Source: Candidatus Faeciplasma pullistercoris
GTDB taxonomy: Bacteria; Bacillota; Clostridia; Oscillospirales; Ruminococcaceae
Reading direction: 5' to 3'
Length of the DNA: 64,000 nt
NCBI GenBank assembly: GCA_018715525.1
Contig: DVLL01000019.1
Coordinates: 1-64,000, forward strand
The notes under the pieces were generated by a model. It was not told the origin of the DNA and made no database searches. It saw only the letters and a list, made by a program, of their open reading frames with translations. Below are positions 33,746 to 47,347 of the stretch, in pieces (positions within the stretch are counted from its first letter, which is position 1; each line of letters opens with the position of its first letter). The position numbers and the translations under genes were made by a program.

Positions 33746-33821
33746 TGGCTGCGGTTCTAGGATTCGAACCTAGGGAATGCTGGAGTCAGAGTCCAGTGCC
33801 TTACCACTTGGCGAAACCGCA
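33746..33821 (-). tRNA. tRNA-Gln (anticodon CTG)
   Basis: The minus strand folds into a cloverleaf with acceptor TGCGGTT/AACCGCA, anticodon stem CTGGA/TCCAG with loop CTCTGAC, and T-arm CTAGG-TTCGAAT-CCTAG. The anticodon CTG reads CAG. The first pair is U1-A72 as expected for bacterial tRNA-Gln. The discriminator is G and CCA is encoded. It lies 24 bases after the second tRNA-Gln on one transcript. Confidence 0.97.
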
Positions 33822-33844
33822 ATCTTCTTTCTGCGTTGTGACTT

Positions 33845-33920
33845 TGGTTGGGATAGGTGGATTCGAACCACCGGAATGACGGAGTCAAAGTCCGCTGCCT
33901 TACCTCTTGGCTATATCCCA
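33845..33920 (-). tRNA. tRNA-Gln (anticodon TTG)
   Basis: Cloverleaf with acceptor TGGGATA/TATCCCA, anticodon stem GCGGA/TCCGT with loop CTTTGAC, and T-arm CGGTGG-TTCGAAT-CCACC. The anticodon TTG reads CAA (and CAG by wobble). The discriminator is A and CCA is encoded. It is the first gene behind the promoter at 33967-33995. Confidence 0.97.
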
Positions 33921-36849: not shown

Positions 36850-37314
36850 TTATTTTAAGTCAAAACTTCTTTCGCCTGCCGCATGCGACAGATATCCCTT
36901 GAGGTATCTTATCGCCTCGACGTAACCGTCAAAGCCTAAGCCCATATATGTCTTTATACAAGCCTTTCCGGCATATGATATCTGTCTGAAGTCGTCGCGC
37001 TTGCTGACGTCCGATATATGCACCTCGACAGCAGGTATAGAAACCGCTTTCAGGGCGTCAAGTATAGCCACGCTGGTGTGTGTATACGCCGCTGGATTGA
37101 TGACTATTCCGTCGAATACCGAGTACGCCTCCTGTATTTTATCTACTATAGCGCCCTCGTGGTTGGACTGAAACAGCTCGACTTCTATTCCTTCATCTTC
37201 TGCGGTACGCTTAATCAGCTCAACGAGCGCCGAATAGCTCTGCTTGCCGTAGATAACAGGCTCTCGAAGCCCGAGCATATTGATATTCGGTCCGTTTATT
37301 ATAAGAAACTTCAT
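36850..37314 (-). CDS. aroQ: Type II 3-dehydroquinate dehydratase
   Basis: The 154-residue enzyme makes 3-dehydroshikimate. It begins with the signature FLIINGPNINMLGLREP (a catalytic Tyr follows in VIYGKQSY), has QSNHEGAIVDKIQ, INPAAYTHTS and VEVHISDVSKRDDFR. Length is normal for the dodecameric type II form. The gap to the preceding aroEK gene is one base, so translation is probably coupled. Confidence 0.95.
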   Translation of the reverse strand: MKFLIINGPNINMLGLREPVIYGKQSYSALVELIKRTAEDEGIEVELFQSNHEGAIVDKIQEAYSVFDGIVINPAAYTHTSVAILDALKAVSIPAVEVHISDVSKRDDFRQISYAGKACIKTYMGLGFDGYVEAIRYLKGYLSHAAGERSFDLK

Positions 37315-37315
37315 G

Positions 37316-38551
37316 TCATTCTCCCCTGCCGTCTTCAGATATAAGCCTTATGATTTTATCCGCTGTATCCTCCGGCGTGCCGTCGTTATCCACCTCAAAA
37401 TCGCAGAAGCGGCGATACATCGGCTCTCTGCGCTTATAGAGCTCGCTCATATCCGAACTGAGCGATATAGGTCTGCCATCGGTAGGCAAAACGCAGGTAT
37501 CCCTCTTTATCCATACTATAACGCCGTTTTGGTGCAGAAGCGGGTAGTTTTCCGGGATCGTCACGCAGCCCCCTCCGGTAGAAATGATTTTACCGGACTT
37601 TTTTCCCGCCTCACCTATAGCCAAGCTTTCTAACCTGCGAAACTCGCCTTCTGACTTTTCCGAGAAAATCTGCGGGATACTCATTCCGGCGCATTTTTCT
37701 ATCTCGGCGTCGGTGTCGATAAGCTCCCTGCCGAGGCGATTGGCAAGAAGCTGAGCCACGGTGGTCTTTCCGCAGCCTGGCATTCCTATGAGACTTATGT
37801 TCCCGAGACTTTCAGAAAGCGTATTTTCTATCCTGTCGGTGACATCGTCAGGAATGGTTATCCCCAAGAAAAGCTCGCTGCTCTTTTTCGCCTGAGCGAC
37901 AAGCATGTGCAGCCCGCTCATATGCGGGATACCAAGCTCCTCAGCCTGAAGCATAAGCGATGTGCGGAGAGGATTGTATATAAGATCGAACACCCCGGCG
38001 CAATCAGGAAAATCGCGCAGGTCGATAGGGCTTATTCCGTTTTTGGGGTACATCCCCACCGGCGTGGCGTTGACGATTATTCCGGCGTCGCCGTGCAAAT
38101 AAAGGTTGGAATAGTTATTTTCCCCGGAACGGCTTATTGTGACCGGCACCGCTCCAAGGCTCTTAAGAACCGCGCATACCGTCACTCCGACTCCGCCGCT
38201 TCCCAAAACGAGCGCCTTTTTGCCCTTTACATCCACCCTGCTCTTTGCGAGCATGCTTGAGAATCCGAAATAATCGGTGTTGTAGCCGTAAAGCTTTCCG
38301 TCCCGCCTCACAAGCGTATTAGCTGAACCGAGGCTTGCTGACGTTTCTGAAAGAGCATCGCATACCGACGCCGCCAGCTTTTTATACGGAATGGTGACGT
38401 TAAGAGCGTCCCAGTCGCCTCCTTTAAGAAACTCCATAACCTCTTCATGGGACTTCTCGTACATCTTATATTCATAGCCGCCGAGCATGGCGTGGATTTG
38501 CGCAGAGTAACTGTGTCCCAGCTTTTCGCCGAGCAGTCCGCAGCGAAGCAT
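37316..38551 (-). CDS. aroE-aroK: Shikimate dehydrogenase-shikimate kinase fusion
   Basis: The 411-residue protein joins two consecutive shikimate-pathway steps. Residues about 1-250 are AroE: GHSYSAQIH, NVTIPYKK with the catalytic Lys, and the NADP loop VLGSGGVGVT. Residues about 255-411 are AroK: P-loop IGMPGCGKTT, shikimate-binding DTDAEIE, FRRLES and STGGGCV. The active residues of both halves are kept. AroE-AroK fusions occur sporadically. The ATG overlaps the pheA TGA by one base, and aroQ follows at once. Confidence 0.94.
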   Translation of the reverse strand: MLRCGLLGEKLGHSYSAQIHAMLGGYEYKMYEKSHEEVMEFLKGGDWDALNVTIPYKKLAASVCDALSETSASLGSANTLVRRDGKLYGYNTDYFGFSSMLAKSRVDVKGKKALVLGSGGVGVTVCAVLKSLGAVPVTISRSGENNYSNLYLHGDAGIIVNATPVGMYPKNGISPIDLRDFPDCAGVFDLIYNPLRTSLMLQAEELGIPHMSGLHMLVAQAKKSSELFLGITIPDDVTDRIENTLSESLGNISLIGMPGCGKTTVAQLLANRLGRELIDTDAEIEKCAGMSIPQIFSEKSEGEFRRLESLAIGEAGKKSGKIISTGGGCVTIPENYPLLHQNGVIVWIKRDTCVLPTDGRPISLSSDMSELYKRREPMYRRFCDFEVDNDGTPEDTADKIIRLISEDGRGE

Positions 38552-39693
38552 CAGATCACCTCGCTGTAGCTTCCGAGGTAGCTATACTCCTCGCAGATAT
38601 CTCCGAGCTCGCCCATCAGCTGCAAAAAGCTCTCAGAGTACACCGGAGTATCGAGGTCGAAATAGAACATGAATTCAAACTCTCTCTCAGGCATCGGACG
38701 GCTCTCAAGCTTGGAAAGGTTTATTCCAAGCGCATATAGCCTTGACAGCAGCTTGTAAAGCGAGCCGGGCTTGTCCTCGAGCACTGCCATAAGGCTGGTT
38801 CTGTCCGCGCCGGGATAGATCTCGAGATCCTTTGAAATACATATGAAGCGGGTGTAGTTGTTGTCCTTATCCTGTACGCAGCTGCGAAGGCACTTAAGAC
38901 CGTACAGCTTCATGCACTCCCTTGAGGAAAGAGTAGCTATATCGTTTCTGTCCGACTCGGCAACCATCTTGGCGGCGACAGCGGTGTTCTCGCAGGGTAT
39001 GATCTTTACTCCCTTTAGACTCTGAAGGAAGGAGGCGCACTGGCTTATCGCCTGCTGATGCGAGTAGACCTCCTTGATGTCTGATATCTCTGTTCCGGGC
39101 TTGGCAAGAAGATTATGGTCTACCTTCAGACGGATGCTTCTGACGATGCTGAACTTGTGCCTTGTCATCAGGTCGTAAACCGTGTTGACCGAGCCTGCGG
39201 TGCTGTTCTCCAAGGGAACCACTCCGTAGCGGCAGAAGCCCTTCTCCACGGCGGTAAAAACAGCCTCGAAGTTAGAGAAATACATTACATTCGGAGACTT
39301 GAAGAGCTTGTCGCAGGCAAGCTGAGAATACGCTCCCTCTACTCCCTGGCACGCAACCGCGGCTCTCTCCGGGAAGAGCTTTGGGGTGTTTTCGATAGCG
39401 GAGCTTATCTTGGATACAAGCTCGCTGCCGCTGCCGATAAGCTTATTCTGATAGCTTCTGCTGAGCTCGAAGATAAGCGAGTATAAAAGTGAGGAATACT
39501 CCTTTATTTCCTCCGGCGAGCTGTCAACCACGGTTTTTAGCTTTTCCTTTTCTCTCTTAAGGTCAAAGACCGGCAAAGAGCGCTCCTTCTTGAAGCCCGC
39601 CAAGTGGGATACTACCTCCATCCTCTCGGCAAAGAGCTTGACAAGCCCCTCGTCAATCCGGTCGATTTTGCTCCTGTAGTCGTTCTGATCCAT
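38551..39693 (-). CDS. pheA: Chorismate mutase-prephenate dehydratase (P-protein)
   Basis: The 380-residue bifunctional enzyme commits chorismate to phenylalanine. Start ATG 39693 (MDQNDYRSKIDRID) is preferred over a TTG one codon earlier. Domains: AroQ-type chorismate mutase (about 1-90), prephenate dehydratase (about 108-290, with EGAYSQLA, the N-S-T-A-G segment ENSTAGSV and the catalytic TRFICI) and an ACT domain (about 300-375) with the phenylalanine-binding ESRP motif. Feedback inhibition by Phe is therefore likely. A 129-base gap (39694-39822) to aroC holds no feature I can support. Confidence 0.95.
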   Translation of the reverse strand: MDQNDYRSKIDRIDEGLVKLFAERMEVVSHLAGFKKERSLPVFDLKREKEKLKTVVDSSPEEIKEYSSLLYSLIFELSRSYQNKLIGSGSELVSKISSAIENTPKLFPERAAVACQGVEGAYSQLACDKLFKSPNVMYFSNFEAVFTAVEKGFCRYGVVPLENSTAGSVNTVYDLMTRHKFSIVRSIRLKVDHNLLAKPGTEISDIKEVYSHQQAISQCASFLQSLKGVKIIPCENTAVAAKMVAESDRNDIATLSSRECMKLYGLKCLRSCVQDKDNNYTRFICISKDLEIYPGADRTSLMAVLEDKPGSLYKLLSRLYALGINLSKLESRPMPEREFEFMFYFDLDTPVYSESFLQLMGELGDICEEYSYLGSYSEVI

Positions 39694-39822
39694 CAAAATG
39701 CAATCCTTTCTGGTTAATATGGTATTCCTGCGCGTAAGATTCTTATATTTGTATTACAGCGGTTTGCCCGCGTCGGGTGTCTCCGCATATAAACTACCTG
39801 TATTTTCAAAGCAGATACTTAT

Positions 39823-40890
39823 TTACAGCTCTCGCTTTCTCGCCAGAACCGCGTCGTAGACCGCAATCGCGGCGGCGGCTTCCACACAGGGAACCGCCCT
39901 CGGGACTATACAAGGGTCATGGCGTCCGGTGACTATAAGCTCCTCGGAAGTAAGGGTTTCGAGATTTACGCTATGCTGAGGCTTTGATATGGACGGCGTA
40001 GGCTTGAAGCCAACTCGGAATGAAAGCGGCATCCCGTTTGTTATACCGCCCAATATTCCGCCGCAGTTATTAGTCATGGTGACTATTTTCCCGCCGTAAA
40101 CCGCGAATTCGTCGTTGTTCTCGCTTCCATATAGCTCAGACGCTCCGAATCCGGCGCCGAACTCGATTCCCTTTACCGCCGGTATGCCGAAAACTATTGA
40201 GGAAATCCTGTTTTCCATACCTCCGAACATTGGATCTCCTATCCCTGCCGGAAGTCCCGTGACCTTACACTCCACCACTCCGCCGACAGAGTCGCCGTTT
40301 GACTTTGCCTTAAGTATGAGCTCCTTCATTTTTTCGCCCTGAACATCTGATACTACCGGAAAATCCTTATCGGCGGTGGAAAGTAAAAGCTCGCCTGAGT
40401 CAGGTATTTTTCCTATCGACGCTATCCTTGAAATAACGGTGATCCCCATTTTCTCAAGCTGCTGCAATATGATCCCGCCGGCGATACACAAAGGAGCCGT
40501 AAGCCTTCCGGAAAAATGCCCTCCGCCCGCGTAATCCTGATTCCCGCCGTATTTGACCTCGGCGGTATAGTCGGCGTGACCCGGCCTCGGGACGACCCTG
40601 AGCTTTGAGTAGTCCCCAGAGCGGGTATCGGTGTTTCGTATTATCGCAGTCAGCGGAGTGCCGCAGCTTATATTACCCTTTACTCCGCAGAGAAACTCAG
40701 GGCAATCGCCCTCTTTTCTCGGTGTGGAATAGCTGTTTTTTCCCGGAGCTCGCCTCTGCATAAAGCGGACAAGCCGGTCAAAATCAATCTCACAGCCGGC
40801 GGGAAGTCCCTCCAGGGTCATGCCGATAGCGGGCGAGTGTGACTGACCGAATATGGTAAGGCGAATATTTTCTCCGTAGCTGCTGCTCAT
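39823..40890 (-). CDS. aroC: Chorismate synthase
   Basis: The 355-residue FMN-dependent enzyme forms chorismate. The start is ATG 40890 (MSSSYGENIRLT), nine bases from AAGGAG; the ATG three codons earlier directly abuts that site and cannot use it. Family motifs SYGENIRLTIFGQSHSPAIG, RRAPGKNSYSTPRKE, RPGHADYTAEVKYGG and GGHFSGRLTAP are complete. It follows aroA closely (13 bases). Confidence 0.96.
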   Translation of the reverse strand: MSSSYGENIRLTIFGQSHSPAIGMTLEGLPAGCEIDFDRLVRFMQRRAPGKNSYSTPRKEGDCPEFLCGVKGNISCGTPLTAIIRNTDTRSGDYSKLRVVPRPGHADYTAEVKYGGNQDYAGGGHFSGRLTAPLCIAGGIILQQLEKMGITVISRIASIGKIPDSGELLLSTADKDFPVVSDVQGEKMKELILKAKSNGDSVGGVVECKVTGLPAGIGDPMFGGMENRISSIVFGIPAVKGIEFGAGFGASELYGSENNDEFAVYGGKIVTMTNNCGGILGGITNGMPLSFRVGFKPTPSISKPQHSVNLETLTSEELIVTGRHDPCIVPRAVPCVEAAAAIAVYDAVLARKREL

Positions 40891-40903
40891 CAGTTTCATC
40901 TCC

Positions 40904-42154
40904 TTATATCATTTCAAGTAAGGTCAGGTCGTCCCAGAATCTCGGGTACGACTTTGCGACGCATTCGCTTCCCATAACTGTGACGCTGCCTGAGCACCTG
41001 CACGCGGCAACCGCAGCGGACATAGCTATGCGGTGGTCGTTACTGGAATCCACTTTTCCGCCCTCAAGCTCCGGCTTGCCTTTTATTACCAGCCCGTCCT
41101 GGAGCTCGGTGACGTCAGCCCCGAGAGCGGTAAGCATCCGGTCTGTAGTTTTGAGCCTGTCCGACTCCTTTATCCGAAGCCGCCCGGCGTTTATCACCTT
41201 GGTCTCGCCCTTCGCCACTGCCGCGACAGCGCATAATGGAGGAATAATATCCGGGATCTGGGCTGCGTCTATAGTCAAGCCTGTAAGGCTCCCTCGCTTT
41301 ACGGTTATGCCGTCGTCCGAGTATGAAATTATCGCTCCGAAGCATGACAAAATATCTGTAACCGCCTTGTCCCCCTGACTGGAATTTGGGTCTAAGCCCA
41401 AAACAGTCACTCCTCGCTCTGACAAAGCGCCCATGCAAAGAAAGAAGGACGCGCTCGAGTAGTCTCCCTCGACGCTGAACTCGCTCGGAAACTTCGGTGT
41501 CTGCCCGCCCGGTATCTTATATGTATTGCCTTCCTTAGTAAACCTCATGCCTGAGCACAGGACTGCGTCCTCGGTCATCCTGATGTAGTTTTGGGATTGA
41601 ACCTCGCCGGTTACACTAAGCGTACTATCCCCGTCAATTATCGAAAGAGCCATAATAAGCCCGGATATGTACTGCGATGAAATATCGCCGGGAAGCTCGT
41701 ATTCTCCCGCAGAGAGTCTACCGGAGCAGAGTATTCTGTCCGAGGTCTTTTCTATAATCATCCCATGCCGCCTCAGGCACTGGTCAAGCGGGGAAAGCGG
41801 TCTTTCCATAAGCCTGCCCTCCGGCAAAAACTCAGCCTCAACCCCGAGTGCTCCGACTATCGGAAGCATAAACCGCAGTGTCGAACCGCTCTCTCCGCAG
41901 CTAAGAAGACGACTACCCGGGCATCCCCGCTTTACAGGCGTGACAAGTATTCTTCCTTCACATACTTTAATATCCGCGCCTATCGCGTTGAGGCAGGCTA
42001 TGGTGGCTTCAATGTCCTTTGATATCCCATCTATCAGTATTGACGACGGTTTTGAGCCGAGAGCGGCAAGAATCAAAGCTCTGTGTGCCTGAGATTTTGA
42101 CGACGGCACCCTGACGCTTCCCGTTCTCTGCCCAGACTGTATAACTATGTCCAT
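40904..42154 (-). CDS. aroA: EPSP synthase (3-phosphoshikimate 1-carboxyvinyltransferase)
   Basis: The 416-residue two-domain enzyme joins PEP and shikimate 3-phosphate. Visible are VPSSKSQAHRALILA (substrate Lys/Ser/Arg), GESGSTLRFMLPIVGALG, SQYISGLIMAL, the catalytic DIIPPLCAVAA and RLRIKESDRL near the end, and SSNDHRIAMS. The glycine-rich loop reads SGSTLRFM, somewhat unlike the class I LGNAGTA, which suggests a class II-type enzyme. Confidence 0.95.
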   Translation of the reverse strand: MDIVIQSGQRTGSVRVPSSKSQAHRALILAALGSKPSSILIDGISKDIEATIACLNAIGADIKVCEGRILVTPVKRGCPGSRLLSCGESGSTLRFMLPIVGALGVEAEFLPEGRLMERPLSPLDQCLRRHGMIIEKTSDRILCSGRLSAGEYELPGDISSQYISGLIMALSIIDGDSTLSVTGEVQSQNYIRMTEDAVLCSGMRFTKEGNTYKIPGGQTPKFPSEFSVEGDYSSASFFLCMGALSERGVTVLGLDPNSSQGDKAVTDILSCFGAIISYSDDGITVKRGSLTGLTIDAAQIPDIIPPLCAVAAVAKGETKVINAGRLRIKESDRLKTTDRMLTALGADVTELQDGLVIKGKPELEGGKVDSSNDHRIAMSAAVAACRCSGSVTVMGSECVAKSYPRFWDDLTLLEMI

Positions 42155-42170: not shown

Positions 42171-43229
42171 TTACGGCTTTATTCCGTCCTCTATCCAGCC
42201 AAGCACCTCTTCGCGTTCCAGCTTCATAAGCTCGCAGCTTCCGATTTTCCTTGGTACTACCAAGGTTATATGAGTAGAGCCGGACTTTTTGTCGGCGAGG
42301 GTCTCGCGGTAGAGATCAAGCGCCGGATATTTAGTTTGCGTGGGCAGACCGAATCGCTCAAGTATATCCAAAATCTCATGAAGATCTGAGTCCGGAAGAA
42401 GTCCTCGCCTATTCGCTGCACGCGATATGACCGCCATTCCGATGGCGACAGCCTGTCCGTGCAGCACCGTAAAGCCGCTGCACGCCTCTACCGCGTGTCC
42501 GACTGTGTGACCGAGATTAAGAAGCATCCTCCTGCCCGTATCAAACTCGTCGGAGGCCACAATATCACGCTTCATCTCCACACAGGCGGTTATCACTCCC
42601 TCAAGGTTTTGTCTGACGCCTGCGCCTTTAAGGCTGTCAAAAAACTCCCTGCTGCCCAAAACCGCGTACTTGATTACCTCTGCGCAGCCGCATAAAAACT
42701 CCTCCTCAGGCAAGGTATCCAGAGTTTCCGGGTCGCAGATTACTCCGTACGGCTGATAAAAGCTTCCCACCTGATTCTTCCCGTGCTCAAGATTGACCGC
42801 CGTCTTTCCGCCGACCGACGAGTCAACCATTGCAAGCAGGGTCGTTGGTATCTGGATAAGCCCCATTCCGCGCTGGAAGGTCGCAGCGGCAAATCCCGCG
42901 AGATCTCCAACCACTCCGCCTCCGAGCGCGACTATTACATCGCTTCTTGTCAGCCTGTTTTCAAGGAGAAATTCAAGCAAACGGATGTATACATCCATGC
43001 ACTTTGACTTCTCGCCGTGCGGGAATACATACTCCAAAACCCTAAATCCGCTTTTCTCAAGGGACAGACGCAGCCTTTGACCGTAGAGACGGCTGACGTT
43101 GTCGTCTGATACAATAACGGCAGTGTCACCCTTTATCAGCGAGGATATATACTCTCCCGCCGAATCTATTAGTCCGGGCTGGACATAGACGGAATAGCTT
43201 CTTGAAGCCTCCACCCTGACCTCTTTCAT
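42171..43229 (-). CDS. aroB: 3-Dehydroquinate synthase
   Basis: The 352-residue NAD- and metal-dependent enzyme cyclises DAHP. NAD-binding GGGVVGDLAGFAAATFQRG, IPTTLLAMVDSSVGGKTAVN and LNLGHTVGHAVE with the metal His are present. The start overlaps the tyrA stop by four bases (ATGA), and aroA starts 16 bases later. Confidence 0.96.
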   Translation of the reverse strand: MKEVRVEASRSYSVYVQPGLIDSAGEYISSLIKGDTAVIVSDDNVSRLYGQRLRLSLEKSGFRVLEYVFPHGEKSKCMDVYIRLLEFLLENRLTRSDVIVALGGGVVGDLAGFAAATFQRGMGLIQIPTTLLAMVDSSVGGKTAVNLEHGKNQVGSFYQPYGVICDPETLDTLPEEEFLCGCAEVIKYAVLGSREFFDSLKGAGVRQNLEGVITACVEMKRDIVASDEFDTGRRMLLNLGHTVGHAVEACSGFTVLHGQAVAIGMAVISRAANRRGLLPDSDLHEILDILERFGLPTQTKYPALDLYRETLADKKSGSTHITLVVPRKIGSCELMKLEREEVLGWIEDGIKP

Positions 43230-44059
43230 CTGCCGTCTACCTCCTCCTTGAGTCTCTTGCCGTCCGCCAATAGACTGACAAGCCTATCGGTATCACCGTT
43301 TTTTATCGCCTCACGGTACTCGTTGAGGCTGGATATGAGGATATCCAGCTCTTTTCCGAGGTATTCGCGGTTTTCTACAAACAGCTCCGCCCACATCTGA
43401 GGATTGAGCCAAGCAACCCTTGTCATATCCTTGTAGCTTCCTGCCGAAAATCCCCTGTGAGCCATAGCTGTGGGGCTTTTGATATAAGCGTTTGAAACTA
43501 CATGCGCGAGCTGCGAGGTAAATGCTATCATCTCATCGTGCTTTTGCGCCGTGGTTACTGTTATCCTTCCGAAGCCCGCGGGTTCAAGAAGCTCCTTTAT
43601 CCTGCTCAAAAATACTATATCGTCGTATTTAGGCGGAACTATAACCATCGGCGCGTTAACAAACATGTTCGCCTTCGCGTATTTCAGTCCGGAATACTGT
43701 GTGCCCGCCATAGGGTGACCGCCCACATATGTGAATCCATATTCACTCGCGAGCTTAAATCCTATCTCGCAGATCATCCCCTTTGTGCCGCAGCAGTCCA
43801 TAACCACAGGCTTTGAACCGAATATCGGAGCGTTCTTTGTAAGATACTCCGCCGCCGCCTCCGGGTACAGCGCTATAAGCACAAGGTCGCACTCCGGAAG
43901 AATATCGGAATTTAGTTCCGCGTTCATTACCTCGCTGACTATGGCGTAATCCATGACCGACTTATCGCAGTCATAGCCATATACCTCATGCCCCGCCGCC
44001 TTATACGCCTTGGCAAAAGAACCTCCAATGAGTCCCAGCCCGACTATTCCAAGCTTCAT
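43226..44059 (-). CDS. tyrA: Prephenate dehydrogenase
   Basis: The 277-residue NAD(P)-dependent enzyme commits prephenate to tyrosine. It has the Rossmann start LGIVGLGLIGGSFAKA, GGHPMAGTQYSG with a catalytic His, and FTSQLAHVVSNAY. It is shorter than the Bacillus form and has no C-terminal ACT domain, so tyrosine feedback on the protein is not obvious; the operon attenuator may supply tyrosine control instead. It lies second in the operon, 51 bases after aroF. Confidence 0.94.
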   Translation of the reverse strand: MKLGIVGLGLIGGSFAKAYKAAGHEVYGYDCDKSVMDYAIVSEVMNAELNSDILPECDLVLIALYPEAAAEYLTKNAPIFGSKPVVMDCCGTKGMICEIGFKLASEYGFTYVGGHPMAGTQYSGLKYAKANMFVNAPMVIVPPKYDDIVFLSRIKELLEPAGFGRITVTTAQKHDEMIAFTSQLAHVVSNAYIKSPTAMAHRGFSAGSYKDMTRVAWLNPQMWAELFVENREYLGKELDILISSLNEYREAIKNGDTDRLVSLLADGKRLKEEVDGR

Positions 44060-44110: not shown

Positions 44111-45112
44111 TTACTTGATTGCCTCTCTTACAGCCTCAACCTTTTTTGCTAAAGCAGCATACTCCTCGAGGCGCAGCGACTGTGCGCCGTCGCATAGGGC
44201 GTGGATAGGATCGTTATGAACCTCTATGATAAGTCCGTCAGCCCCTGCCGCAGCGGACGCGAGAGCCATCGGCGGAACAAGCCTTGACATTCCGGTCGCA
44301 TGGCTCGGGTCGGCTATCACCGGAAGGTGGGATAGCTCCTTGAGCATTGGTATAGCGGAGATATCCATCGTATTTCTCGTGTAGTCGCTGTATGTCCTGA
44401 TTCCTCTCTCACAAAGAATGACGTTTTCGTTTCCGCTTGCCATTATGTACTCCGCGCTCATAAGCAGCTCCTTAAGGGTATTGGCAAGTCCTCTCTTGAG
44501 AAGAATAGGCTTATTTGTCTTTCCAAGCTCCTTGAGCAAATCAAAGTTCTGCATATTTCTCGCGCCCACCTGCAAAACATCCACATCGTCAAAAAGCGGC
44601 AGGTCGGTAATGCTCATGATCTCGGTGACTATCGGAAGCCCTGTTGCCTTCCTCGCTATCTGCAAAAGCTCTATTCCCCTGCCCTTTAGACCCTGGAAAT
44701 CGTATGGAGAGGTTCTGGGCTTGAAGGCTCCTCCTCTGAGCATATTCGCTCCGGCGTCCTTGACAGCCTTTGCGACTGCCACTATCTGCTCCTCGCTTTC
44801 TACGGAGCAGGGTCCGGCTATCATGCAGAAATGTCCGCCGCCGATTTTTACTCCCTTGACATCTATTACCGTGTCGTCCGGATGGAATTTGCGGTTGCAG
44901 CACTTGAATGACTCCGACACTCTTGTCACAGATTCCACTATATCAAGGCTCTCTATCAAATCCTTGTCAACCTTTGAGGTGTCTCCTATAAGTCCGAGAA
45001 CGGTGTTATACTCGCCCTCAGAAATATGGACGCCTATTCCCATTCCCTTGAGCCAGTCGATGAGCTGGTTCCTTTTTTCTTCGCTTACATTTCTCTTCAA
45101 CGCAACTACCAT
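44111..45112 (-). CDS. aroF: 3-Deoxy-7-phosphoheptulonate synthase (type I beta)
   Basis: The 333-residue enzyme condenses PEP and erythrose 4-phosphate, the entry step. An N-terminal ferredoxin-like regulatory domain (about 1-70) precedes the barrel with [49 protein letters not shown] and IADPSHATG. This matches the AroA(G)/Thermotoga-like DAHP synthase type. ATG 45112 has AGGAGG eight bases upstream. It is the first structural gene after the attenuator. Confidence 0.96.
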
Positions 45113-45169
45113 GATGTTATCCTCCTGAATTTGAGCGTAAGTATTATTAAAACGACCTCGATAAGCAAT

Positions 45170-45201
45170 AAAAAAAGCTACACAAGAGCAACCTGTGCAG
45201 C
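45170..45201 (-). terminator. Attenuator terminator (3:4 helix) before aroF
   Basis: GCTGCACA (45201-45194) pairs with TGTGTAGC (45184-45177, one G-U), loop of nine, followed by seven T (45176-45170). It lies between the leader peptide and aroF, 57 bases before the aroF ATG, so it must be bypassed for expression. Confidence 0.85.
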
Positions 45202-45292
45202 CAATAAACTAATATCCCGCGTTTATTTTTGCAACACAAATCACCTTTACATCAAGCGAAAGCAAGCGGTAAAGTAAAAGTAATATGTGTTG
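45193..45292 (-). promoter_or_regulatory. Alternative RNA helices 1:2 and 2:3 of the aromatic attenuator
   Basis: Helix 1:2: CAACACA (45292-45286) and CTTTTAC (45280-45274), both inside the leader peptide codons, pair with TGTGTTG (45238-45232) and GTAAAGG (45250-45244), leaving a symmetric 5x5 internal loop. Helix 2:3, the antiterminator: TTGTGTTGC (45239-45231) pairs with GCTGCACAG (45201-45193), one U-U mismatch, and inside it AATAAAC (45227-45221) pairs perfectly with GTTTATT (45209-45203). Segment 3 is also the 5' arm of the terminator, so 2:3 and 3:4 exclude each other. This is the classical ribosome-mediated attenuation layout. Confidence 0.8.
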
Positions 45293-45312
45293 TAAAAGTA
45301 ATTTCTGCGCAT
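45247..45312 (-). CDS. Tyr/Phe-rich leader peptide of the aromatic operon
   Basis: A 21-codon frame starts at ATG 45312, eight bases after CGGAG, and ends at TAA 45249-45247. The peptide reads MRRNYFYNTYYFYF and then TACFRLM: five Tyr (5, 7, 10, 11, 13) and four Phe (6, 12, 14, 18), with no Trp. The aromatic codons cover segment 1 of the attenuator and the stop codon lies inside segment 2, so stalling at Tyr or Phe codons would free segment 2 to form the antiterminator, while normal termination would cover it. The peptide itself need have no function. No protein family applies. Confidence 0.85.
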   Translation of the reverse strand: MRRNYFYNTYYFYFTACFRLM

Positions 45313-45361
45313 ATCAATTTCTCCGTTATCTTTATGAACCTTGAATCGGTTCCTGCGTTAT

Positions 45362-45390
45362 ATTATAGTCACGCTTAAATCATTTGTCAA
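45362..45390 (-). promoter_or_regulatory. Promoter of the aromatic amino acid operon
   Basis: TTGACA (45390-45385), 17-base spacer, TATAAT (45367-45362): a perfect consensus. Transcription should start near 45355, giving a leader of about 240 bases. Confidence 0.9.
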
Positions 45391-45492
45391 GCATTTTTCA
45401 TAAATTAAAGCGCAAAAGTAAATCTTTTGGCGGCTGCCTTTTGGCGGCATCTGAAAATACGCTAAAATCAATCTATGGTTACTAAAAAGTCA

Positions 45493-45521
45493 TTGAAAAA
45501 ACGGCATGTTTAATGTATATT
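45493..45521 (+). promoter_or_regulatory. Promoter of the GH43-GH31 pair
   Basis: TTGAAA at 45493-45498, 17-base spacer, TATATT at 45516-45521; the gene starts 33 bases later behind AGGAGG. Confidence 0.7.
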
Positions 45522-45553
45522 GTATTCATAAGTGATTAGGAGGTATTTCCGAA

Positions 45554-47347
45554 ATGAAAACAGAGCTTATTATCTATACAAGAGAACCTATGGACACCGA
45601 TATCTACGACGCCAAGCTTGCCTACAGCATGCACCTTGCGCTTATGAGAGACGGTGTCTGCGTGCCTCTGAACCATAATTCCGGCGTGTTTTTCGCCAAG
45701 GCGACCGAAGACCCCACTGACGGCTCTATCACCCCGAAGTCCCTTAAGTCTCCGTACGCCTTTAAGCTCGCGCAGGGCGGCTACGGCGTTTTAGCCGTGA
45801 GAACGGAGGGCGACGGAAGTGTCGACCCCGAGAGCAAGGGCTGCGCGCTTTTAGCTGTGACAGAGGACTTTTTGCAGTATAAGGAAATCGGACTTGTCAG
45901 GCTGTGCGACGACTATGTCACAGAGCTCGCCTGCTCCTACTGCCAGCAGGGCAACGCGTACAAAATAAGCTACAAGACCGAATCATACAGCGGCGTATGC
46001 AAGCTTGCCGGTATTGATAGCCTTGAAACTACACCCGTGACCTCCTGCCCCGCTCAGGAGGAAATTACAGTTTCTGAATGCGCAAAGGATATCGAGGGAG
46101 CGCATGTAAGCTGCGTTATAGAGATACCTGACGGCATAGCAGATAAGCTTGAAAAGAAGCTGGTAACGCCAAGGAATATTGAAGTGAGATTTCCCGAAGA
46201 GGTCACCGCGTCTAACGAAGCTGAGCTAAGCTCTGTCAGAGCGACGGCAATATACTCGGACGGCTCGACGGACGACAAGAAGGTAATATGGAATCTTAGC
46301 GGCGTTGACTTCGGCACGCCCGGCAGATATGAGGTCACAGGACAGCTTGCTCAGGAGCACTACGAGTTCCCTGTCGCTGTAAACAGAGCCGACCCCTGCG
46401 TTGCTAAATGGGGAGACAAGTTCTATTTCATTGCCACCAACGACGCAGACGGCAACCACACCCTCTATATCCGCTGCGCCGACACCATCGAGGGTCTTGT
46501 GGACGCGCCGGAGGTTTTGCTTCTCGACTCCGAGACCTATGAGGGAATCGGCGGACTTCTCTGGGCGCCTGAGTTCCATGAGATAAACGGCAGGCTATAT
46601 ATATTCCACGGAGCGACGCCGGGAGAGTTCTTCAGAGAAGAAAGCCACCTTATGGTTCTTCGCGAGGGCGGCGACCCGATGCAAAGAAGCGACTGGTCAC
46701 GCACGAAAAGAGTCACCAAGCGCGACGGCAGCGACCTGTGCGAAGCGGGAAAGGTCATCACCCTTGATATGACCTGCTTCCCGTGGGAGGGAGATTACTA
46801 CGTCGTATGGTCTCAGAGGCAGTTTGTCCCCAAGGATCTCGGAGCATGGCTTTATATCGCCAAGCTTGACCCAAGCGACCCATGGAAGCTCCTTACCGAC
46901 CCCGTAGTTCTGTCAAAGCCGGATTACGGCTGGGCTAATAACCACGTTCTTGTTGACGAGGGGCCGTTTGCCCTCATCAGAGGCGATAAAATTTATCTGA
47001 CCTTCTCGAGCGCGCTTGTGGACTCTACCTACTGCGTCGGAATGTTCACCATCGAAAAAGGCAAGAATCTGCTTGACCCGTCAAATTGGGTAAAGTTAAA
47101 CTACCCGCTTCTCACATCAAGGAGCGTTGAGGGCGAGTTCGGTCCCGGACATAACGCATATGTTACTGACGATGACGGCAAGGTCTGGAACACCTATCAC
47201 GCAAGACCCGGAGTCAAGGGTCCAAGGTCGAGCGGCATAAGAAGAGTTCACTTCGATATCTACGGCGAACCTGTTCTTGACATGACGGAAGAGCTTGATA
47301 TCAACCCTGCGCTCAAGACAGTCAAGACAACTATCGTCGTAAAATAA
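45554..47347 (+). CDS. Glycoside hydrolase family 43-like enzyme
   Basis: The 597-residue protein lacks a signal peptide and is probably cytosolic. Residues about 1-200 are a beta-rich region of unknown type; about 215-275 is an Ig-like (Big4-type) module (SVRATAIYSDGST ... GTPGRYEVTGQL); about 280-580 is a five-bladed propeller of GH43 type, with the catalytic base Asp in NRADPCVAKWGDKFYFIAT, Glu in LVDEGPFAL and GPGHNAYV. Family members act on arabinose- or xylose-containing oligosaccharides. It is translated with the GH31 gene 25 bases downstream, which suggests joint trimming of imported side-chain oligosaccharides. The exact linkage is not determinable. Confidence 0.85.
   Translation: MKTELIIYTREPMDTDIYDAKLAYSMHLALMRDGVCVPLNHNSGVFFAKATEDPTDGSITPKSLKSPYAFKLAQGGYGVLAVRTEGDGSVDPESKGCALLAVTEDFLQYKEIGLVRLCDDYVTELACSYCQQGNAYKISYKTESYSGVCKLAGIDSLETTPVTSCPAQEEITVSECAKDIEGAHVSCVIEIPDGIADKLEKKLVTPRNIEVRFPEEVTASNEAELSSVRATAIYSDGSTDDKKVIWNLSGVDFGTPGRYEVTGQLAQEHYEFPVAVNRADPCVAKWGDKFYFIATNDADGNHTLYIRCADTIEGLVDAPEVLLLDSETYEGIGGLLWAPEFHEINGRLYIFHGATPGEFFREESHLMVLREGGDPMQRSDWSRTKRVTKRDGSDLCEAGKVITLDMTCFPWEGDYYVVWSQRQFVPKDLGAWLYIAKLDPSDPWKLLTDPVVLSKPDYGWANNHVLVDEGPFALIRGDKIYLTFSSALVDSTYCVGMFTIEKGKNLLDPSNWVKLNYPLLTSRSVEGEFGPGHNAYVTDDDGKVWNTYHARPGVKGPRSSGIRRVHFDIYGEPVLDMTEELDINPALKTVKTTIVVK

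Follow-up and report, generated by a model that had tools for sequence, protein, structure and literature searches.

The window analysed here is the whole 64,000-nucleotide stretch at positions 1 to 64,000 of contig DVLL01000019.1 from Candidatus Faeciplasma pullistercoris (GCA_018715525.1). It carries on its minus strand a series of aromatic biosynthesis genes headed by aroF, which encodes DAHP synthase and is the first structural gene (44111–45112; NCBIfam NF006421 and TIGR01361 above cut-off). Behind it lie tyrA (prephenate dehydrogenase, 43226–44059; best NCBIfam matches, all below curated cut-offs), aroB (3-dehydroquinate synthase, 42171–43229; TIGR01357 above cut-off), aroA (EPSP synthase, 40904–42154; TIGR01356 above cut-off), aroC (chorismate synthase, 39823–40899; TIGR00033 above cut-off), pheA (chorismate mutase and prephenate dehydratase, 38551–39696; NF008865 scores 213.4 bits, short of its cut-off of 219, and the chorismate mutase models also fall below theirs), an aroE-aroK fusion (shikimate dehydrogenase and shikimate kinase, 37316–38551; NCBIfam matches to both halves below cut-offs), and aroQ (type II 3-dehydroquinate dehydratase, 36850–37314; TIGR01088 above cut-off). 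Spacing and strand suggest that aroF-tyrA-aroB-aroA-aroC-pheA-aroEK-aroQ form one operon read as a single transcript. As annotated, the gene set is the route from central metabolites to Phe and Tyr with no Trp-branch gene within it; the NCBIfam gene calls here agree with the initial annotation, which had described a Tyr/Phe operon free of Trp-branch genes. The genome beyond the window (25 contigs, 95.98% complete) likewise gave no match to Anth_synt_I_N, the trpE domain, or to IGPS (trpC), both of which were matched in 14 of 14 control genomes. The organism apparently cannot make Trp and is a probable Trp auxotroph, though the assembly leaves room for a few per cent of missing sequence.

Two further observations concern the setting of the operon. 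The window aroF stands at 78–80% to genes from other families of the class (G256 of family f56; G196 and G361 of f19) and at just 60–65% to those of its own family (G265, G142, and G370), and this closer kinship to other families hints at transfer of the operon or at a paralogue. Elsewhere in the window, two adjacent tRNA-Gln genes (anticodons CTG and TTG) occupy 33746–33920 on the minus strand.

Upstream of aroF, the minus strand carries a compact leader. Its promoter, TTGACA-17-TATAAT (45362–45390; −35 box, 17-nt spacer, −10 box), matches the consensus at 12 of 12 positions, and direct reading of the sequence places a Shine-Dalgarno GGAG at 45321–45324, 8 nt 5′ of the leader ATG. The leader frame (45247–45312, stop included; ATG at 45312, stop at 45249–45247) has 21 codons and translates as MRRNYFYNTYYFYFTACFRLM, in which 5 of the 21 residues are Tyr, 4 are Phe, and none is Trp; the apparent absence of trpE and trpC fits this Trp-codon-free composition. 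An intrinsic terminator hairpin (45176–45202), recognized by fold and covariation, runs into a U run of seven T (45170–45176), the first of which closes the stem. The initial annotation had claimed a consensus promoter, a ribosome site, a 21-codon peptide with nine aromatic residues and no Trp, and a terminator hairpin with seven T just before aroF, and each element was located on re-examination; 'just before' proved loose, with 57 nt separating the U run from the aroF ATG (45112). The aroF ribosome site itself (45126–45121) lies within none of the helices described below. Because the minus strand from 45113 to 46053 is without any ORF of at least 80 aa and the neighbouring ORF, which begins at 45554 on the plus strand, is divergent, no gene reads into the leader terminator from upstream, and the terminator therefore serves transcription starting nearby. 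That neighbour (45554–47347, 597 aa) had no NCBIfam match at E up to 0.001.

The leader RNA (45352–45160) folds at −55.9 kcal/mol (z −4.4), a stability reached by 0 of 200 dinucleotide shuffles, and can form three competing helices—1:2, 2:3, and 3:4. Region 1 (45274–45292), the 5′ arm of helix 1:2 identified by folding and synonymous recoding, consists mostly of Tyr/Phe codons, and region 2 (45232–45250), identified by folding, forms the 3′ arm. Inside region 2 lies the 5′ arm of the antiterminator, GGTGATTTGTG (45235–45245), which folds and relatives both support and which in close relatives is mostly GGRTAATTTGTG. Its alternative partner is region 3, CACAGGTTGCT (45187–45197), which folds and covariation place in the 5′ side and the loop of the hairpin that terminates transcription. 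Constrained folds of the window add a predicted accessory antiterminator helix, in which AATAAAC (45221–45227) pairs with GTTTATT (45203–45209). The best fold of the free RNA also pairs 45320–45311, including the A and U of the start codon, with 45215–45206, a pairing with no role in the model proposed below.

How these helices might be distributed was explored with constrained equilibrium folds, in which the RNA before and under a ribosome was held open to 12 nt past a chosen codon. With no ribosome, region 2 is base-paired to the leader codons and the terminator is present. With the mask at Tyr10 to Phe18 and nascent RNA ending at 45187, the antiterminator forms at −19.1 to −23.0 kcal/mol: GGUGAUUUGUG (45245–45235) pairs with CACAGGUUGCU (45197–45187), enclosing a GC step and a helix of seven pairs. 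Moving the mask to the stop codon abolishes the antiterminator helix (−8.5 kcal/mol). In full-length RNA, no mask position tried, whether it stood for a stalled ribosome or not, displaced the terminator as the best fold; as the antiterminator is best only in nascent RNA that has not yet reached region 4, the switch would have to be kinetic, a matter of timing. With the mask at Tyr5 or Phe6, helix 1:2 can largely form again in full-length RNA, so codons 10–14 (Tyr10 to Phe14) are the likely control codons, and the modelled folds indicate that the early leader codons may matter little for control.

All 4227 Rfam models were run against the window leader; none matched at gathering level, and up to E of 1 just a microRNA model appeared, far below its cut-off. 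A T-box (RF00230) or riboswitch at the window leader was sought specifically and found neither at gathering level nor at E up to 1, and the Rfam amino-acid leader families (the Phe, Trp, His, Leu, and Thr leaders) gave no covariance-model match there. A search of the genome itself with model R1 at E up to 1 returned the aroF leader as the sole match, with no second copy. Nor did the 8-kb stretch around hisD contain an ORF with 5 His codons in 8 that might serve as a His leader before the his genes.

Conservation was assessed in 79 upstream regions, comprising the window and 78 relatives drawn from the best 80 of 589 confirmed loci (DAHP synthase identity 63–89%), two of which, L032 and L060, were left out because they have no upstream DNA. 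Record titles of these best 80 are mainly uncultured Clostridia, Oscillospiraceae, and Lachnospiraceae, with odd labels on L019, L057, and L073; the class of the relatives was taken as Clostridia from these titles. At least 6 Tyr/Phe in 10 codons occurred upstream of aroF in 66 of the 79 regions; the same criterion was passed by 22 of 1580 Markov copies, by 1 of the 79 reverse complements, and, in the same loci, by 4 of the 378 regions that precede other ORFs of at least 200 aa. With Trp allowed and the threshold set at 4 or more of 10 codons, a leader was found in 74 of the 79 regions from these best-listed loci (that of L031 is doubtful), whereas L011, L042, L058, L063, and L064 had none upstream of aroF; 8 of the 74 leaders contain Trp codons (L004, L005, L006, L008, L017, L026, L036, and L052). 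Other parts of the leader recur with it. Among the same 74 loci, a terminator of −9 kcal/mol or better was present in 71 (control 23/222; missing in L004, L006, and L051), and a promoter with at least 10 of 12 consensus matches within 130 nt 5′ of the leader ATG was present in 50 (control 24/1480), though in 5 of those 50 the site ends 6 nt from the ATG, too close to be right. Against versions of region 2 with shuffled bases, the duplex between the real region 2 and the 5′ arm of the terminator was stronger (mean z −2.36 across 71 loci), with 5 or fewer of 100 shuffles as good in 50 of the 71 loci and 3 of 100 in the window. By these counts, the predicted aroF leaders exceed chance, with the proviso that the relatives' sequences share kinship and the controls overstate their independence.

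Covariation supports both competing helices, as judged from an alignment (A1) of the 25 of 74 loci with the clearest common pattern, a choice that makes the percentages lean towards the structure. In this alignment 96.5% of the cells of the 14 antiterminator pairs were paired; 16 cells were doubly changed (a count reached by 0 of 500 shuffles), and 4 pairs had changes in both partners (11 of 500). Further pair types were no more numerous than in shuffles (245 of 500), and versions slid out of register paired in 33–51% of cells (maximum 50.5%). The 10 pairs of the terminator were paired in 95.2% of cells, with 22 doubly changed cells (0 of 500 shuffles) and 5 pairs with double changes (5 of 500), and its slid versions paired in 24–48%. 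For both helices, none of 500 shuffles equalled the alignment in its share of paired cells, its count of doubly changed cells, or its covariation score. Leader codon choice also favours helix 1:2. The region-2 motif could be located in 54 of 71 loci, L031 with its doubtful leader among them, and across these 54 the hairpin became weaker when leader codons were exchanged for synonymous ones (mean z −1.18); the window stood at 4 of 100, and the real codons reached 5 of 100 or better in just 17 of the 54. The initial annotation had proposed looking among relatives for a conserved leader frame and covarying helices, and both are there—the frame is Tyr/Phe-rich in 66 of 79 regions, and terminator and antiterminator covary.

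We consider it very probable that this leader is a ribosome-mediated transcription attenuator of the aroF operon that senses how much charged tRNA-Tyr and tRNA-Phe is available; that the ribosome stalls, that transcription terminates, and that both respond to Tyr and Phe is deduced from the leader's architecture. The features typical of such a device are found here: a run of Tyr/Phe codons in a short predicted ORF, a terminator between leader and aroF, an antiterminator that excludes the terminator and is the best fold solely in nascent RNA, and a helix 1:2 that overlaps the control codons. Transcription would start near 45355, assuming a start 7 nt past the −10 box, and a ribosome would follow on the 21-codon leader. 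When Tyr and Phe are ample, the ribosome would reach the stop codon and cover region 2, allowing 3:4 to pair; RNA polymerase would then halt at the U run and release a leader RNA about 186 nt long. Under shortage of Tyr or Phe, the ribosome would stall at codons 10–14, inside the 5′ arm of helix 1:2; region 2, left free, would pair with region 3 while region 4 is still to be synthesized, and transcription would enter aroF. If the leader were not translated, helix 1:2 and the terminator would be expected to form. The proposal of a complete Tyr/Phe attenuator is in this sense borne out at the level of sequence, with the anatomy present and conserved and the helices covarying.

Other mechanisms could be imagined for a leader of this kind. 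In an arrest peptide, of which TnaC is an example, free Tyr or Phe or an aromatic metabolite would act on the ribosome and nascent chain, and the peptide sequence, not codon hunger, would set the stall. Such a reading draws some encouragement from a Trp-containing subgroup of other families, whose leaders share a WG(F/Y)YFSAGYF-like pattern and are more alike than a codon count needs (L164, L166, L167, L168, L179, L183, L187, L198, and L199, across families); a strict form of the pattern caught 6 peptides from 5 families, with amino acid identity of 76/140 and codon identity at identical residues of 44/69. In close relatives, however, the residues other than Tyr and Phe vary, and recurring Ala-Ser codons may be explained by pairing with region 2, so that we regard peptide-specific arrest as improbable. 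Still less credit goes to the idea that the leader is a constitutive damper, or acts on aroF at the level of translation, and responds little to Tyr or Phe. Full-length folds do always favour the terminator, as a damper would have it, but covariation maintains two helices that cannot coexist, which would be difficult to account for if nothing switched, and the position of the aroF ribosome site outside the described helices speaks against translational control.

The last alternative, which we hold the least likely, is that a bound factor—a T-box tRNA, a TRAP-like protein, or a riboswitch ligand—works the switch and the ORF is incidental. Leaders that sense tRNA do exist in this genome, where 10 T-box matches were found, 2 of them above cut-off, but none of the 10 lies at aroF, and the window leader is without an Rfam match at gathering level. 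When 20 of the best 80 relatives were scanned, the sole Rfam matches were two FMN riboswitches far from the leader, and Tyr/Phe richness in 66 of 79 regions is not what an incidental ORF would show. The two riboswitches lie about 1 kb 5′ of aroF (L009, 1840–1954; L020, 1763–1879).

Attenuation by a Tyr/Phe-reading leader peptide, if this is what the window encodes, would not be confined to its near relatives. In a class sample of genomes, 285 of 391 of which encode DAHP synthase, we drew 80 places from 44 families among the best-scoring matches, a non-random selection. At least 6 of 10 codons upstream were Tyr, Phe, or Trp at 49 of these 80 best-scoring DAHP synthase genes, in 33 of the 44 families (Markov copies 33/800, reverse complements 2/80); since the places were picked among the best-scoring, the fraction across the whole class may be lower. 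With 40 further class genes and the window added, a leader was present at 76 of 121, and a terminator lay behind 73 of the 75 class-sample leaders other than the window's (control 13/225). In other classes of the phylum, 14 of 40 places passed (Markov copies 10/400, reverse complements 1/40), some of them unconvincing by eye. The exact region-2 motif of the window was found in 14 of 49 class leaders (control 27/980) and in 1 of 14 outside the class; leaders are thus wide and the motif is less so, which makes the window RNA one branch of the leader type. Among the 31 class places without a leader, 20 were scanned with Rfam and 1 had a T-box: in L158 (235–502), a DAHP synthase gene without a leader peptide has a T-box upstream instead. 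The suggestion that a mixed Tyr and Phe leader is uncommon accordingly fails for class-sample DAHP synthase genes, before which such leaders are frequent; that it was undescribed holds for Clostridia aroF in the titles and abstracts of the open literature consulted.

The amino acid mix of these leaders may loosely track the presence of a Trp pathway. Among the 76 leaders, 16 contain Trp codons in genomes with IGPS, 7 contain them without IGPS, 21 lack them with IGPS, and 32 have neither (Fisher p 0.024 by genome and 0.036 over 34 families, kinship uncorrected). IGPS positives were 159 of 163 matching genomes, the weak matches of G144, G145, G277, and G346 (E 3e-5 or worse) being dropped, and G346 belongs to the 76-leader set. 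Family f46, with 9 genomes that have IGPS and no Trp codon, contradicts the association; the window fits it. As a tentative idea, to which we give well under even odds, leader-peptide attenuation could be ancestral to the class and some neighbouring classes and the usual way in which DAHP synthase is controlled there, with the codon mix tuned to each genome's pathways—Tyr and Phe alone where the Trp pathway was lost, Trp codons added where it was kept—and the window would be one such case.

Should attenuation be confirmed, the aromatic entry step in many gut- and rumen-type anaerobes would run by a mechanism best known from Proteobacteria, working beside T-boxes in the same genome. The relatives offer a ready natural set of leaders, with varied Tyr/Phe/Trp mixes, for studying how one leader integrates several amino acids, and, provided that the tuning idea is right, leaders may also aid the prediction of aromatic auxotrophy and cross-feeding.

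The mechanism itself is textbook; what is new is its breadth and the amino acid mix. The trp, his, phe, and leu leaders of Proteobacteria are the classical ribosome-mediated attenuators, and the window leader resembles them in its promoter, its short ORF rich in the regulated amino acids, its helices 1:2, 2:3, and 3:4, its U-run terminator, and its biosynthetic operon. It differs from them in reading Tyr and Phe together, in its Clostridia-type host, and in having no Rfam match. The premise that peptide attenuation is foreign to Bacillota is outdated, as published cases include His and Leu leaders as well as a Phe uORF upstream of aroF in Acholeplasma. The ilv-leu operon of S. aureus has an experimentally supported transcription attenuator with a Leu-rich leader peptide (PMC5794164); unlike the window leader, it carries Leu and three Ile codons, belongs to the class Bacilli, and serves another operon. 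Leaders with His codons and alternative hairpins have been predicted in Bacillota, five Eubacteriales species among them, and differ from the window leader in these codons, in their targets (the his operon, a hisS paralogue, and hisZ), and in having been reported from few groups (PMC9413887, PMC2965389). A 2005 view held that no Firmicutes aminoacyl-tRNA synthetase gene is under classical attenuation (PMC1262725). In titles and abstracts of the open literature, which takes in few subscription papers, we found no Tyr/Phe aroF leader from Clostridia.

The nearest precedent is the Acholeplasma aroF uORF (PMC8632094). This motif, uORFC-13-1, places a uORF and an apparent terminator before aroF, with attenuation proposed; its 24 representatives come, by that account, from Acholeplasma and unknown organisms alone, and the text names Phe ('at least one phenylalanine residue') (PMC8632094). 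The window leader meets this description, having a uORF with Phe codons and a terminator before aroF, and resembles the motif as described in its possible promoter, ribosome site, and start codon (PMC8632094). Compared by description, it differs in carrying Tyr codons as well and in residing in a host other than Acholeplasma.
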